A stretch of DNA of 38,100 nucleotides, taken from positions 1 to 38,100 of the forward strand of contig JAICUF010000013.1 of the NCBI GenBank assembly GCA_025935995.1, in the 5' to 3' direction. The DNA comes from Gemmatimonadales bacterium (lineage in GTDB: Bacteria; Gemmatimonadota; Gemmatimonadetes; Gemmatimonadales; GWC2-71-9). Both the position numbers and the translations under genes were made by a program. This document shows positions 26,964 through 30,797 of the stretch, piece after piece (the stretch's first letter is position 1; each line of letters opens with the position of its first letter). The notes under the pieces were generated by a model. The model saw only the letters and a program-made list of their open reading frames with translations, was not told the origin of the DNA and did no database searches.

Positions 26964-28151
26964 CTACCGAAGCCGCTGCGCCAGCGCCTGCGCTGAATCC
27001 GGCGGGACACTGCCGTTGAGGAAGAGCTGGACGTCGCCCTTCACGATCCCGCCCGCCCGCCGCGGCCCGCCGGGGCCCACCCGCTGCTGATCGAGATAGA
27101 ACGGCTGCCCGTTCGCATCCTGGTAGACGGCGCGAACCACATTGCGCGAGGGGTCCGCTCCGGGAACGAGCCGGCCCGGGATGAGGCCCACGAGCCGCGG
27201 CCGGAGCCCGTCGATCGCGTGGAGCGGCGCCCCCAGCTCACGCTTCGCGTCGTCGAGCCCGATGCGCGAGGTGATCTGCGCCTGGACGTCGAGCGTCGGC
27301 GGCGAGGCGGGCGCCGGCGCCCGGAACGAGGTCACGCTCTCGCGCGCGTTGTCCGCGGACCCGACGTCGGGCGCGGCGGCCGTGCGATCCGGGCGCGGCG
27401 CGGCCCTCTGGAGCGTCGGCTCCGCCGCCGCCGCGTTCGACGCCAGCGATTTGCCGAGGGGCGCGGGCTCGATCTGCCGCTCACGTCGCGTGGCCGCGGC
27501 CAGCTGCGTGGCGGTGTCCCTCGGCTGGGTCCGCGTGGTGCTGTCGCGGCCGGCGGTCCGCGAGCTGTCCCGCGCGGTGTCACGCGATGCCCTGGCCGAG
27601 CTGTCGGCGCGTGCCGCGTCGAGCGCCGCAGCGCTGAGCGGCGGCCGGCTGGCCAGCGCGGCCTGCGCGTGCGCCTCGGCGATCGAATCGGCCGACGGCG
27701 GCGCCGCGCTCGTTTCAGGGAGCGCGGTGAGCGGCGGGAGCGCTGCCTGCGGGGGAATGTCGTCGCCCCGGCCACGCAGGAGGAAATATCCGCCTCCCCC
27801 GAGCACGAGCAGCAGGACCGCCGCCCAGAGCCCGCCACGCGGCTGAGTACGCCGCCAGTGTGGAGTCTGCGGTGCGCTCGGCATCAGCACGACGGGCGCG
27901 CCGGCGCCCACGTTCGCGGCGGGAGGCGCCGGAATCGGCTCCATGCCGTCGAAGCCCTCGTTCAGCTCCGCCCGCGTGTCATCCAGCGATGCGATCACGC
28001 GATCGGTCTCGGCCGCGAGCTCCCGCGCTTCCTGATAGAGGCGCTGGCACTCATCGCATTCGGCGATGTGCCGCCTGACGGTCTCGGCTTCCTCCGCACC
28101 GAGCTCGCCGTCGATCAGCTCGTGGATCACCCCTTCGTCAAGATGCAGCAT
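26964..28151 (-). CDS. Zinc-finger anti-sigma factor with long periplasmic domain
   Basis: This encodes 395 residues from an ATG with AGGAG five bases upstream, and it overlaps the sigma gene by 14 bases. The N-terminal zinc-binding anti-sigma motif is H28, C32, C35 (H-I-A-E-C-D-E-C), a ZAS-type sigma-sequestering domain. A single membrane span lies at about 107-125. The periplasmic part starts with a low-complexity stretch of Ala/Arg/Asp/Ser/Thr (about residues 160-240), then a conserved-looking domain with Y-Q-D-A-N-G-Q-P-F-Y. Cytoplasmic sigma binding with an extracytoplasmic sensor is the standard model. What it senses is unknown. Confidence 0.85.
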   Translation of the reverse strand: MLHLDEGVIHELIDGELGAEEAETVRRHIAECDECQRLYQEARELAAETDRVIASLDDTRAELNEGFDGMEPIPAPPAANVGAGAPVVLMPSAPQTPHWRRTQPRGGLWAAVLLLVLGGGGYFLLRGRGDDIPPQAALPPLTALPETSAAPPSADSIAEAHAQAALASRPPLSAAALDAARADSSARASRDTARDSSRTAGRDSTTRTQPRDTATQLAAATRRERQIEPAPLGKSLASNAAAAEPTLQRAAPRPDRTAAAPDVGSADNARESVTSFRAPAPASPPTLDVQAQITSRIGLDDAKRELGAPLHAIDGLRPRLVGLIPGRLVPGADPSRNVVRAVYQDANGQPFYLDQQRVGPGGPRRAGGIVKGDVQLFLNGSVPPDSAQALAQRLR

Positions 28152-28635
28152 CGGCACTCCTTCCCTGCAGGCGGTACGCCTCCACCAGACGGCGGCGCGC
28201 CCGCGCCAGCGTCGTTCCGATCGCCCCGCGCGACATCCCGAGCGTGGCCGCGATCTCCTCGTAATTGAATCCCTCGGCCTTGAGCAGCAGCGCCTCGCGG
28301 TCGCGCTCGTTCAGCGTGGCGAGCGCGCGCTGCACGGCAAGCCGGCCCTCATCGCGCTCGAACGCCTCGTCCGGCGCCGGCATCGCATCCGGCCCCTCCG
28401 CCCTCAGGAGCTGAAGGCGGCGGCCCTGGCGCACCGAGCGGCGGCCATCCTCGCGCACCAGGTTGAGCGCCACCGCGAAGAGCCACGGACGCGGATTGGT
28501 CGGCGGCGCGGCGACCGCGCGCGCGAACGTCTCCTGCGCGATGTCTTCCGCGCGGTCGCGGTCGCCGGTGCGGCGATACACCATCCGCACCAGCGACGCG
28601 TGATACAGCGTGAACAGCTCCGCGATATCGGTCAT
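28138..28635 (-). CDS. ECF RNA polymerase sigma factor
   Basis: This 165-residue sigma factor has region 2 motifs (Y-R-R-T-G-D-R-D-R-A-E-D-I-A-Q-E-T-F at about residues 20-37) and region 4 (about 105-155), with L-K-A-E-G-F-N-Y-E-E-I-A and a helix-turn-helix M-S-R-G-A-I-G-T-T-L. It starts within the stop of the VIT/vWA gene (ATGA) and overlaps the anti-sigma gene. Cognate control by the neighbouring anti-sigma is expected from the family and overlap. The controlled promoters are not identified. Confidence 0.92.
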   Translation of the reverse strand: MTDIAELFTLYHASLVRMVYRRTGDRDRAEDIAQETFARAVAAPPTNPRPWLFAVALNLVREDGRRSVRQGRRLQLLRAEGPDAMPAPDEAFERDEGRLAVQRALATLNERDREALLLKAEGFNYEEIAATLGMSRGAIGTTLARARRRLVEAYRLQGRSADAAS

Positions 28636-30797
28636 GTCCCCCTGAAGCCGGAGATCAGTGCCGCCAGCCTTCCGGCGTCGAGCCGCTCGACGCCCCCGGA
28701 CGCGACCCGTATGCTCGCCCGGCGCCCCGCCACCAGCACCGAATCGCCGACGCGAAGACAGGGCACAAGCTCGGGCAGAGCCCGGACCAGCGCGAAGTAG
28801 ACCGGGCTGAAAGGCGCTACCGTCGTTGTCTGGAGGCTATCCACCTGCCCCGCGTCCGTCCAGACGCCACGTTGCAGAATGAAGAGCCGGCCTCCGACCC
28901 GCCGCTGGTCCCTTCCCCGGTTTCCCGCGGGCGCGCTGAGCTCCGACGCCTTCGCCACGGCGAGGTTCGTGGCCCCGCTCAGGGCCGCGCTCCGGCTTGC
29001 GGCATCGAACGCGGCCGCGCCGCTCTGCGCTTCCGGGGCCGGCGTCAGGAGCCGATCCCGGCGGAGTGCCCCGACTGCGACATCAGCGGGCTCCTGCACC
29101 AGGTACGACGTGTACTCCGTGAGGATGCCGTAGCGCAGGCCGAGGTCGCGGACCTGGCTCACGAGATCGGGCGACGCGCCCTCGAGCCGGATCTCGCGGG
29201 TCAGGTCTCCGACGCGGCGGGACGCCCAGAGTCGCGGAATGAACTCGTTTCCCGCATCGCTCGCCGGAAAGCGCGCTTCGGTGGTGAATCGCTCATGGCG
29301 TCCGTTCCGTTCGCCCTCGAGGGTGACCGGGCCGGCCCCGCTTCCCTGATAGCGGCCGAACAGGACCAGCTCCTCGCCGTAGAAGAGGTCCGGAAGGGCG
29401 GCCGGTGTCGGCGCCGAGAATCGAACCGGCGCCGATGCGAGGCGGAGGTTCACGAGTGCGGGATAGCGCAGCTTGCTCAGCAACCCTCCGACCGCCGTCT
29501 CGACGTTCGCCTCCGGCGCCACATAGGTGGCGCTGCCCCGGCCCGCCGAGGACAGCCGGTCGAGCAGCCAGGTGTTGACGTCATGCCCGATGCCGACCGT
29601 GAAGATGCGACTGCCGCCCCGCCGTGCGGCAGCGCGGTCGGCCAGGCGCTCCGGCGAGCGCTCGCCGATCGAGGGGAGTCCGTCGGTCATGAACACGACG
29701 AGCCCGAGCCGTCCCTCTCCCGGGTCCTCCGTGAAGGCCGCGTCGAGCGCGCCCTCGATGTTGGTCCCGCCGTCCGCCGAGAGCCCATTCACGAACGCCC
29801 GGGCATCGCGCAGGTGTTCCGGGGTCGCGGCCACGAACCCCGGCTCCAGGCGTCGCACGGCGGACGAGAACGCGATGAGCCGGAAGCGGTCGGCGGTGCC
29901 AAGCGTGCCCAGCGCCTGCAGCAGCGCCGCACGGGCCTGCTCGAGCTTGTCGCCCGACATCGAGCCCGAGACATCCACCACGAGCGTGAGATCGCGCGGA
30001 ACGGCGGCGGCGGCGGTCGCCGGCGGCGGCGAGAGGAGCAGCATGAAGTAGCCGTCCTCGCCTCCCGGCGCGTGCGTGAGCACCGTGGTCCCGACGAGGT
30101 GCTCCCGGAGCGGCAGCAGCAGCTCGAGGTCGCCGCCGCCGGCGGCCTGTGCGGCGATCGCGAGCCCGCCGTCGGCGCGTGTCGTGGTGATGGCATGGGT
30201 CGGCGAGTACGGCGTGCCGATCGCGGCGGCATGGGTCACCCGGACACGGAGCGTCTCGGGGTCCCCCGGCCCGCGCTCGCCCATGGCGTAGCGGAAGCGG
30301 AGGGCGTCGCCGGTCCGATCGAGCAGCTGAGTATAGCGAAGGACGACTTTCCGGGTTTCGCCCGGCGCGATGGGGAAGACCTGCGCCCGCACCAGGCCAT
30401 GGCCCGCGAGGGTGAGCAGAGCCGGGTCGCGCCGGCGGCGCACGATCGCCTCGTAGATGCCCCGGGCTTCGTCGGCGGGCATCACCTCGCCCCGGACCTC
30501 GCGCTCGCCCATCCAGAGGGAGAAGTTCTGGAACGCCGCCTCGCCGGGAAGCGGGTAGAGGTAGCTGCCCTCCGCGAGGCCGCCGCCGTCGTTCCGGAAC
30601 TGCTCCTCCACCTCGACCCGCGCGATCCGGCCGTCGATCGTCACGCTGACGTGCGAGGCCACGCGGGTGACCGGAGTCCTTCCACGGTCGGGCGGGCGCT
30701 CGATCTCGATCCATCCCTGGGCTCTGAGCGGGGTGATGCTGGCGAGCCCGAGCGCTACGGCGAGGCCGGCGGCGGGGGCGAGTGTGCGGCGGAACAT
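28632..30797 (-). CDS. Exported VIT and von Willebrand A domain protein
   Basis: This encodes 721 residues with a signal peptide (about 1-27, ending L-R-A-Q). The VIT domain covers about 40-170, including [11 protein letters not shown], and a von Willebrand A domain follows from about 268 with the MIDAS motif D275-V-S-G-S (D-x-S-x-S) and D-G-G-T-N. The C-terminal third is beta-rich with [11 protein letters not shown]. The family resembles inter-alpha-trypsin inhibitor heavy chains, and bacterial members are surface or periplasmic. A GGGAGG Shine-Dalgarno precedes the ATG. It overlaps the sigma gene by four bases, so it is the first gene of the operon. It could be part of the signal cascade or be itself the main product. 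Confidence 0.88.

Follow-up and report, generated by a model that had tools for sequence, protein, structure and literature searches.

In Escherichia coli, the sigmaE-RseA-RseB operon encodes a sigma factor, a membrane anti-sigma factor and a further exported protein. The SigW-RsiW and SigL-RslA systems pair an extracytoplasmic function (ECF) sigma factor with a membrane-bound, zinc-binding anti-sigma (ZAS) factor, the type also called class I or ASDI. About 79% of the ECF sigma factors of Gemmatimonadetes are reported to be associated with class I anti-sigma factors (PMC7406223), so a sigma/anti-sigma pair is typical for this phylum; "von Willebrand" appears nowhere in the text of that paper. 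Here we analyze a locus in 38,100 nucleotides from a Gemmatimonadales bacterium (contig JAICUF010000013.1, positions 1 to 38,100; hereafter the window), in which the genes for an exported protein with VIT and von Willebrand factor A (vWA) domains (V), an ECF sigma factor and a membrane anti-sigma factor follow one another in that order on the minus strand, each overlapping the next, at the positions where the original prediction, made from the bare sequence, had placed them. Our comparisons across the phylum suggest that the trio is one autoregulated envelope-response unit of which V is itself a regulon member, a regulatory core to which we assign a probability of about 0.8.

The conservation of this arrangement supports the trio as a genuine unit. 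V-like proteins were recovered at E 1e-20 in 168 of 395 Gemmatimonadota genomes, and profiles for all three proteins identified V, then sigma, then anti-sigma on the same strand in 111 of 121 loci, an order and orientation too regularly kept to be due to chance. The 121 loci are the window and 120 fetched loci that were chosen by hand from the 168 V-positive genomes; they are mostly full-length V matches, most partial or edge matches having been left out. Sigma boundaries are those of the longest open frames, and in two loci (L105, L126) the sigma factor is read inside a far longer frame. The loci of named relatives L003-L009 share their contigs with seven other loci and so add nothing to the count; L002 alone is additional evidence. 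The gene order had been called uncommon, but next to V it is the norm within Gemmatimonadota. Seen from the V side, the vWA gene is likewise seldom parted from the sigma/anti-sigma pair, both by locus and by genome: 150 of the 168 V-positive genomes hold a strong sigma match (E 1e-60 or better, a limit that we set, with 31 weaker genomes dropped), and several of the 18 without one belong to family f6. All counts that cross V, sigma and promoter motif combine a 395-genome search for V with 390-genome searches for motif and sigma, using hand-typed lists.

The ten exceptions comprise two loci at contig ends (L053, L114), locus L124, six f6 loci (L148, L149, L151-L154) and L156. L124, in genome G342, has V without a sigma factor, and a sigma and anti-sigma of the same group are encoded on a different G342 contig (L278). 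The f6 homologues of V have no sigma neighbor, and the promoter motif described below was unseen near V in five of the six; L154 has a variant of it with a longer spacer. L156 (G184:C1:696042-708003) is a second, diverged V copy of 1029 aa without a sigma neighbor; the complete trio is present elsewhere in the same genome. Outside the phylum, the sole distant relative of V (L010, 34% identity) has neither a sigma neighbor nor the promoter motif, and in a plasmid collection the matches to V, in 9 records, cover no more than 45% of the protein.

A promoter search upstream of position 30797, as the original prediction proposed, gave a strong footprint lying outside the coordinates considered there. 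With a consensus derived from the same upstream regions in which it was later counted, and with shuffled, reversed and opposite-strand sequences as controls, TGTGCAA-N16-CGTC was found upstream of V in 89 of the 111 operons (shuffle mean 0.02, reversed 0, opposite strand 0) and the relaxed form [TC]GTGCA[ACT]-N15..17-C[AG]T in 106 (2.82, 2 and 0 in the same controls). The distance from the end of the motif to the first in-frame start codon has a median of 30 nt (105 measured). The window promoter, placed in the gap between the V start and the start of a divergent dioxygenase gene, is the variant CGTGCAA-N16-CATC, which matches the relaxed form only; the same variant occurs in 6 of the 111 operons, and the window holds a single GTGCAA-N16-CRTC site (mean of 0.10 in shuffled sequence, where 10 of 100 shuffles had one or more). 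Both boxes are kept, with a changed spacer between them, in L002, which lies outside the 111 and is the nearest of the named relatives (83% protein identity).

Across the 390 genomes the stringent motif has 218 sites, compared with 22 for the reversed pattern; of the 228 genomes that match the sigma strongly 120 carry it, versus 21 of 162 others (Fisher p 1e-16). For the longer form TGTGCAAN16CGTCTC, the site at V is the only one in the genome in five of the eight f2 genomes searched, and the other three have two or three sites. Eight sites precede a sigma gene where V is not upstream (L225, L234, L236, L238-L240, L266, L268), and in G342, where V (L124) and sigma (L225/L278) are on different contigs, both carry the motif. 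Chiefly because the motif precedes sigma where V is not upstream, and both halves of the divided G342 locus, we infer that the sigma factor of this operon reads TGTGCAA-N16-CGTC promoters and that V is part of its regulon.

The leader between promoter and V was also considered at the RNA level. Inverted-repeat arms of at least 6 bp are present in 29 of 91 V leaders, versus 5.6% of shuffled leaders, and in several relatives the arms differ yet stay complementary. In the window, the repeat pairs the -10/early leader with the Shine-Dalgarno sequence; because its left arm starts within the -10 box, on the final base of CATC, an RNA role is doubtful.

Proteins of the DUF4349, SIMPL (DUF541), DUF4139 and YfbK-type vWA families are widespread and poorly understood. 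These are the families that recur at the motif away from V. We examined 78 distinct stringent sites, of which 14 precede V and 64 lie elsewhere; 60 regions were picked by hand among the sites listed out of the 218. By a post hoc tally, with family queries chosen after the neighborhoods had been inspected and a limit of 160 nt, 48 of the 64 precede an assigned gene: DUF4349 (21), SIMPL (9), DUF4139 (6), a YfbK-type vWA protein (4) or the sigma gene itself (8). Such repetition of families at motif sites among multi-megabase genomes is hard to get by chance. Representatives of DUF4349, SIMPL and YfbK, and the DUF4139 protein of L256, score over their Pfam cut-offs, and the DUF4139 protein of L222 falls just under (31.6 vs 31.8); several of these proteins begin with signal-peptide- or lipoprotein-like stretches. 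Two unassigned sites have a SIMPL-length protein about 230 nt downstream (L235, which was run through Pfam, and L267), and a third has a sigma gene about 210 nt downstream, beyond the 160-nt limit (L260). Further non-V sites stand outside the 64 (L277, L279, L281-L283, L285-L289). Two of these have a MIDAS-like vWA frame (L277, L288), at five (L281, L283, L285, L287, L289) none of the regulon families was seen among the frames listed, and three (L279, L282, L286) carry no assignment. In L288 (G363:C153), the motif-preceded YfbK-like vWA gene is apparently split over two frames (300 + 380 aa).

The sigma factor matches Sigma70_r2 (PF04542, 34.0 bits) and Sigma70 r4_2 (PF08281, 55.7 bits), both over cut-off. 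With regions 2 and 4 only, no region 1.1 or region 3 model listed, and a length of 165 aa, it belongs to the ECF type. In a tree of 74 rows, built with 56 of the 111 V-linked sigma factors and with an unsettled bootstrap and several long outgroup branches, the V-linked sigma factors form a clade separate from nine other ECF sigma factors of the window's own genome. They score 214-259 bits against their profile, except for three lower ones (134, 142, 188), and the other ECF sigma factors of that genome reach at most 110 bits, with the exception of L297 (248 bits). L297 (G000:C169, sigma approximately 31436-31936, plus strand) provides a second sigma factor of this ECF group, paired with its own anti-sigma factor; a site that by eye resembles TGTGCAC..CGTC, its spacer being about 17, lies upstream of the sigma gene.

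V combines a VIT domain with a following vWA domain (Pfam VIT and VWA_3), the layout of the inter-alpha-trypsin inhibitor heavy chains (ITIH). Its N-terminus is a signal-peptide-like stretch ending in AQ, as judged by eye without a predictor. D275, S277 and S279 (in D275-x-S-x-S279), T345 and D372 are identical in all 111 V proteins; these positions form the metal ion-dependent adhesion site (MIDAS) in vWA domains, and V has the full set of MIDAS residues. In phmmer searches V matched the heavy chains at E 8e-21 to 8e-37, and a predicted model of V (mean pLDDT, the predicted local distance difference test, 65) aligned by Foldseek with inter-alpha-inhibitor heavy chain 1 (6fpy) at E 6.9e-36 over 585 columns, with a query TM-score of 0.42. 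Identity to the heavy chains is only about 19%, and V, in contrast to them, is a bacterial protein without a known substrate. V is most likely a sigma-controlled envelope protein with the heavy-chain layout and an intact metal site. Two other assignments were rejected. The marine proteobacterial sortase target TIGR03788 also joins VIT and vWA, but V scores 305.5 bits against a curated cut-off of 551.65, its C-terminus reads as having neither a sorting signal nor a transmembrane helix, and it does not adjoin a sortase as the TIGR03788-type example from Rhizobium does (L318). V is not YfbK, as PF12450 and PF12034 are both unlisted for it by Pfam at E 0.01.

The anti-sigma factor carries a zf-HC2 domain and adjoins the sigma gene, which places it among the ZAS factors of class I. 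Its exact HxxxCxxC motif is present in 94 of the 111 operons and missing from 17. The window protein has one predicted transmembrane helix after the ZAS domain, as in the membrane-bound subtype; of 94 homologues judged by this simple threshold, 48 reach it and 46 do not. The structural model places a helix (H107-126, low pLDDT) at that position, and its confident regions are limited to the zinc-finger part and a large share of the C-terminal alpha/beta domain, where pLDDT is 79-88 per 10-residue block except for 58 (361-370), 60 (381-390) and 50 (391-395). In VIA-align comparisons the ZAS part resembles RslA (Z 6.7) and RsiW (Z 5.9). The C-terminal domain matched four RseB entries at Z 4.9-5.5 over 73-80 residues, with the next unrelated row at 4.2; Foldseek of the anti-sigma model returned nothing significant (best E 0.43, to proteins other than RseB), and no sequence match of this domain to RseB was found. 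A fold like that of the RseB C-terminal domain is thus suggestive but weak. Just 3' of the anti-sigma gene, two loci encode a further zf-HC2-like protein (L003 9735-10769, L005 7704-8672), one over and one under the cut-off; a scan of 94 loci flagged one such protein, on the same contig as L005.

In some relatives a vWA domain is joined to the anti-sigma factor itself. Five genomes (G019, G181, G278, G269, G331), in none of which VIT was found, have a motif-bearing sigma gene followed by a single frame with an early HxxxCxxC and a later DxSGSM. Pfam analysis of three of these fusions (L270, L271, L274) gave vWF_A, VWA and YfbK_C well over cut-off, zf-HC2 over cut-off in L271 and L274 and under it in L270 (18.9 vs 22.2), and a CarboxypepD_reg-type match, under cut-off, in L270 and L271. 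A transmembrane helix follows the zinc finger in two of the three by the simple threshold, the corresponding segment of L274 lying below it. In L270, from a one-contig genome of 4.6 Mb, the ATG at 2064 of the fusion frame overlaps the sigma stop. Four fusion sigma factors were included in the 74-row tree, and because they nest inside the V-linked clade the arrangement V-sigma-anti-sigma looks ancestral and the fusion derived. The fusion should set a YfbK-type vWA domain on the periplasmic side of an orthologous anti-sigma factor.

The pairing of an ECF sigma factor with a membrane-anchored vWA protein recurs in Proteobacteria with an unrelated sigma factor. Among plasmids, a search with YfbK returned 130 matching records, 113 from Rhizobium. 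Five were opened, and in four of these (three Rhizobium and one Azotobacter; L314, L315, L317, L319) a sigma gene of ECF size lies directly upstream of the vWA gene and overlaps it; the three Rhizobium neighborhoods are near-identical, leaving about two independent cases. In the fifth, from Bacteroides, no sigma gene was found directly upstream. The Rhizobium and Azotobacter vWA proteins consist of a segment of approximately 70 residues, a transmembrane helix, a linker and vWF_A-VWA-YfbK_C, and the pairs have the gene order of the Gemmatimonadota fusion, annotated only as a sigma factor and a VWA domain-containing protein. They differ in lacking VIT, in an N-terminal segment where Pfam found no zinc finger, and in a sigma factor outside the group, which we consider unrelated because it scores only 65-68 bits against a profile that V-linked sigma factors match far better. 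The pair resembles a sigma factor and an anti-sigma factor that has a vWA domain as its periplasmic part, and the N-terminal segment may be an anti-sigma domain. A partial precedent comes from Mesorhizobium huakuii, where yfbK (MCHK_2864) and a sigma-70 family gene (MCHK_2865) have consecutive tags and appear in one table with values of 13.9 and 15.6, respectively, apparently fold changes; the passage is silent on the pair (PMC3973600).

These observations can be assembled into a working model. At rest, the ZAS anti-sigma factor would hold the sigma factor at the inner membrane, as in other members of its family, until a periplasmic-side signal, presumably entering through the periplasmic part of the anti-sigma, relieves the hold. 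The freed sigma factor, with RNA polymerase, would then read the conserved two-box promoters. From the one about 30 nt before V, more V would be made, then sigma and then anti-sigma, and the anti-sigma, as the final product of that transcript, would shut the response off and limit it to a pulse. In many relatives the same promoter would drive the DUF4349, SIMPL, DUF4139 and YfbK-type vWA genes. Finally, V may feed back on the periplasmic part of the anti-sigma, much as the fused YfbK vWA domain might in relatives without VIT. We regard such a feedback or sensing contact between V and the anti-sigma as falling just short of an even chance; the Proteobacteria pairs raised our estimate from distinctly lower odds.

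Several observations weigh against the autoregulated unit as drawn here, or against the place of V in it. V is missing from 78 of the 228 strong-sigma genomes, and V was not found in the 3.2 kb around the L297 pair, so an obligate part for V in the three-component sensor that the original prediction envisaged is not supported; a sigma factor often found without V, and a V seldom found without sigma, fit a V that belongs to the regulon or is a dispensable partner. The related second sigma factor could share the promoter. Stringent sites are present in 103 of the 168 V-positive genomes and missing from 65, and 16 of the 64 non-V sites have no assigned gene within 160 nt. The one V-matching plasmid record that was opened (L318) has its VIT/vWA gene beside a sortase and without a sigma factor. 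Searches of the window's own genome, which is 87% complete, recovered neither DUF4349 nor SIMPL nor YfbK, and the window promoter is off the consensus by one base in each box; for these two reasons the regulon there may comprise little more than this operon. GTGCAAN16CRTC has 8 sites in that genome, compared with 0 for the reversed pattern. We rejected a broad own-genome regulon; one candidate, which reads as DUF4139-like, is preceded by the CATC variant but has its likely start about 180 nt downstream (L165), is unconfirmed by Pfam, and was neither counted nor used. The proposal that a vWA protein partners the anti-sigma gains indirect support from the fusions and the Proteobacteria pairs, but the fused domain is of the YfbK type and not the VIT type, which speaks for a vWA domain at the anti-sigma and not for V itself.

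V may be nothing more than a product of sigma activity, a stress-made envelope protein for adhesion, matrix or repair that never touches the anti-sigma, and we consider this a serious contender at somewhat under even odds. It would account for the putative sigma promoter before V even where the two are split, as in G342, for the many strong-sigma genomes without V, and for other motif-bearing genes unlinked to sigma; it leaves unexplained why V alone among the regulon genes is fixed first in the operon (111 of 121 loci), why relatives lacking VIT have a vWA domain fused to the anti-sigma, and why Proteobacteria pair another sigma factor with a transmembrane-anchored vWA protein. Those same facts, the strict linkage from the V side, the native fusions in five genomes and the YfbK vWA genes overlapping ECF sigma genes in Rhizobium and Azotobacter, would suit V as a dedicated signal receptor that gates the anti-sigma as RseB acts on RseA and binds a ligand or metal, as would the invariant MIDAS residues and the RseB-like C-terminal domain of the anti-sigma (Z approximately 5, weak). 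A dedicated receptor is nevertheless unlikely, given how often the sigma factor occurs without V, the second sigma/anti-sigma pair in the same genome with no V beside it, and the different subtype of the fused vWA.

Alternatively, the promoter may be read by another regulator, such as a paralogous sigma factor of the L297 type, with the operon's sigma serving other targets. The L297 score and the two or three sigma-profile matches in some genomes leave room for this, but four genomes (G129, G073, G004, G112) have a single sigma match and their sole stringent motif at V, and at loci where V does not lie ahead of sigma the motif stands before the sigma gene; we consider this explanation improbable. 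The autoregulated unit with V as a regulon member therefore remains our preferred reading of the locus. It is tempting to speculate further that exported vWA proteins, VIT-type in trans and YfbK-type fused in cis, modulate anti-sigma factors from the periplasm in a MIDAS-dependent way, forming an undescribed class of envelope sensors in Gemmatimonadota and, with an unrelated sigma factor, in Proteobacteria, and that the further vWA, DUF4349, SIMPL and DUF4139 proteins of the Gemmatimonadota regulon cooperate in the envelope. We offer this broader proposal tentatively, as something we would sooner bet against than for.

The features of the locus are collected in the Table. V and sigma overlap by 4 nt (28632-28635), and the anti-sigma and sigma frames by 14 nt from ATG 28151 or 20 nt from GTG 28157; the ATG is probably the start, because homologues begin M-x-H-x-D-E/D-G. 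A hybrid sensor histidine kinase gene (PAS, HisKA, HATPase, receiver; 24256-26961, plus strand) converges on the anti-sigma gene with 2 nt between the stops. The divergent gene upstream of V encodes a glyoxalase-fold dioxygenase, likely 4-hydroxyphenylpyruvate dioxygenase, with a likely start at 30937 as read from the sequence.

Table. Coordinates of the V-sigma-anti-sigma locus and its parts in the window.
Feature	Position	Strand	Basis
V (exported VIT/vWA protein, 721 aa)	28632-30797	-	Open frame, Pfam
ECF sigma factor, 165 aa	28138-28635	-	Pfam, TIGR02937 77.4 bits (cut-off 42.9)
Membrane anti-sigma factor, 395 aa from likely ATG	26964-28151	-	Pfam; start by homologue comparison
Anti-sigma factor, longer open frame from GTG 28157, 397 aa	26964-28157	-	
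Putative ECF-type promoter: -35 CGTGCAA (30847-30853), -10 CATC (30827-30830), spacer 16	30827-30853	-	
Leader, 29 nt, with 6-bp inverted repeat CTCCCG...CGGGAG overlapping Shine-Dalgarno	30798-30826	-	
VIT domain of V, residues 49-155	30333-30653	-	PF08487, 76-81 bits, cut-off 26.5
vWA domain of V, residues 269-423	29529-29993	-	PF13768, 80.9 bits
ZAS zinc-finger domain of anti-sigma, HxxxCxxC	28044-28127	-	zf-HC2 32 bits, cut-off 22.2
Predicted transmembrane helix of anti-sigma	27774-27836	-	Kyte-Doolittle scan
Anti-sigma C-terminal alpha/beta domain, predicted periplasmic, possibly RseB C-terminal-like fold	26967-27269	-	Model residues ~295-395

In summary, a curiosity of gene neighborhood becomes a predicted signaling circuit for a barely studied phylum, with one sigma factor, one promoter and a short target list. 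Shared control by an envelope sigma factor would give DUF4349, SIMPL, DUF4139 and YfbK-type vWA proteins a common, testable context; no paper treating two of DUF4349, DUF541, "SIMPL domain" and DUF4139 together was found in the literature searched, from which subscription papers were mostly absent. The same search, with the same limit and thus as weak evidence, returned no description of a VIT/vWA protein with an ECF sigma factor. Moreover, the natural fusion of anti-sigma and vWA, together with its look-alike in Proteobacteria, provides a concrete hypothesis for vWA control of transcription.

Set against the described systems, the locus shares with SigW-RsiW and SigL-RslA a sigma factor of regions 2 and 4 only, a zf-HC2 anti-sigma gene just downstream, a transmembrane helix, and a two-box promoter with the boxes 16 nt apart. 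It differs from them in the VIT/vWA gene that leads the operon, in the long predicted periplasmic part of the anti-sigma with its possibly RseB-like C-terminal domain, and in the YfbK vWA domain that this part carries instead in some relatives. With sigmaE-RseA-RseB it shares the three-part operon layout and, weakly, an RseB C-terminal-like fold at the end of the anti-sigma. In E. coli, however, RseB stands alone and is no vWA protein, whereas here the anti-sigma itself would carry the RseB-like domain and the stand-alone protein is of the VIT/vWA type.

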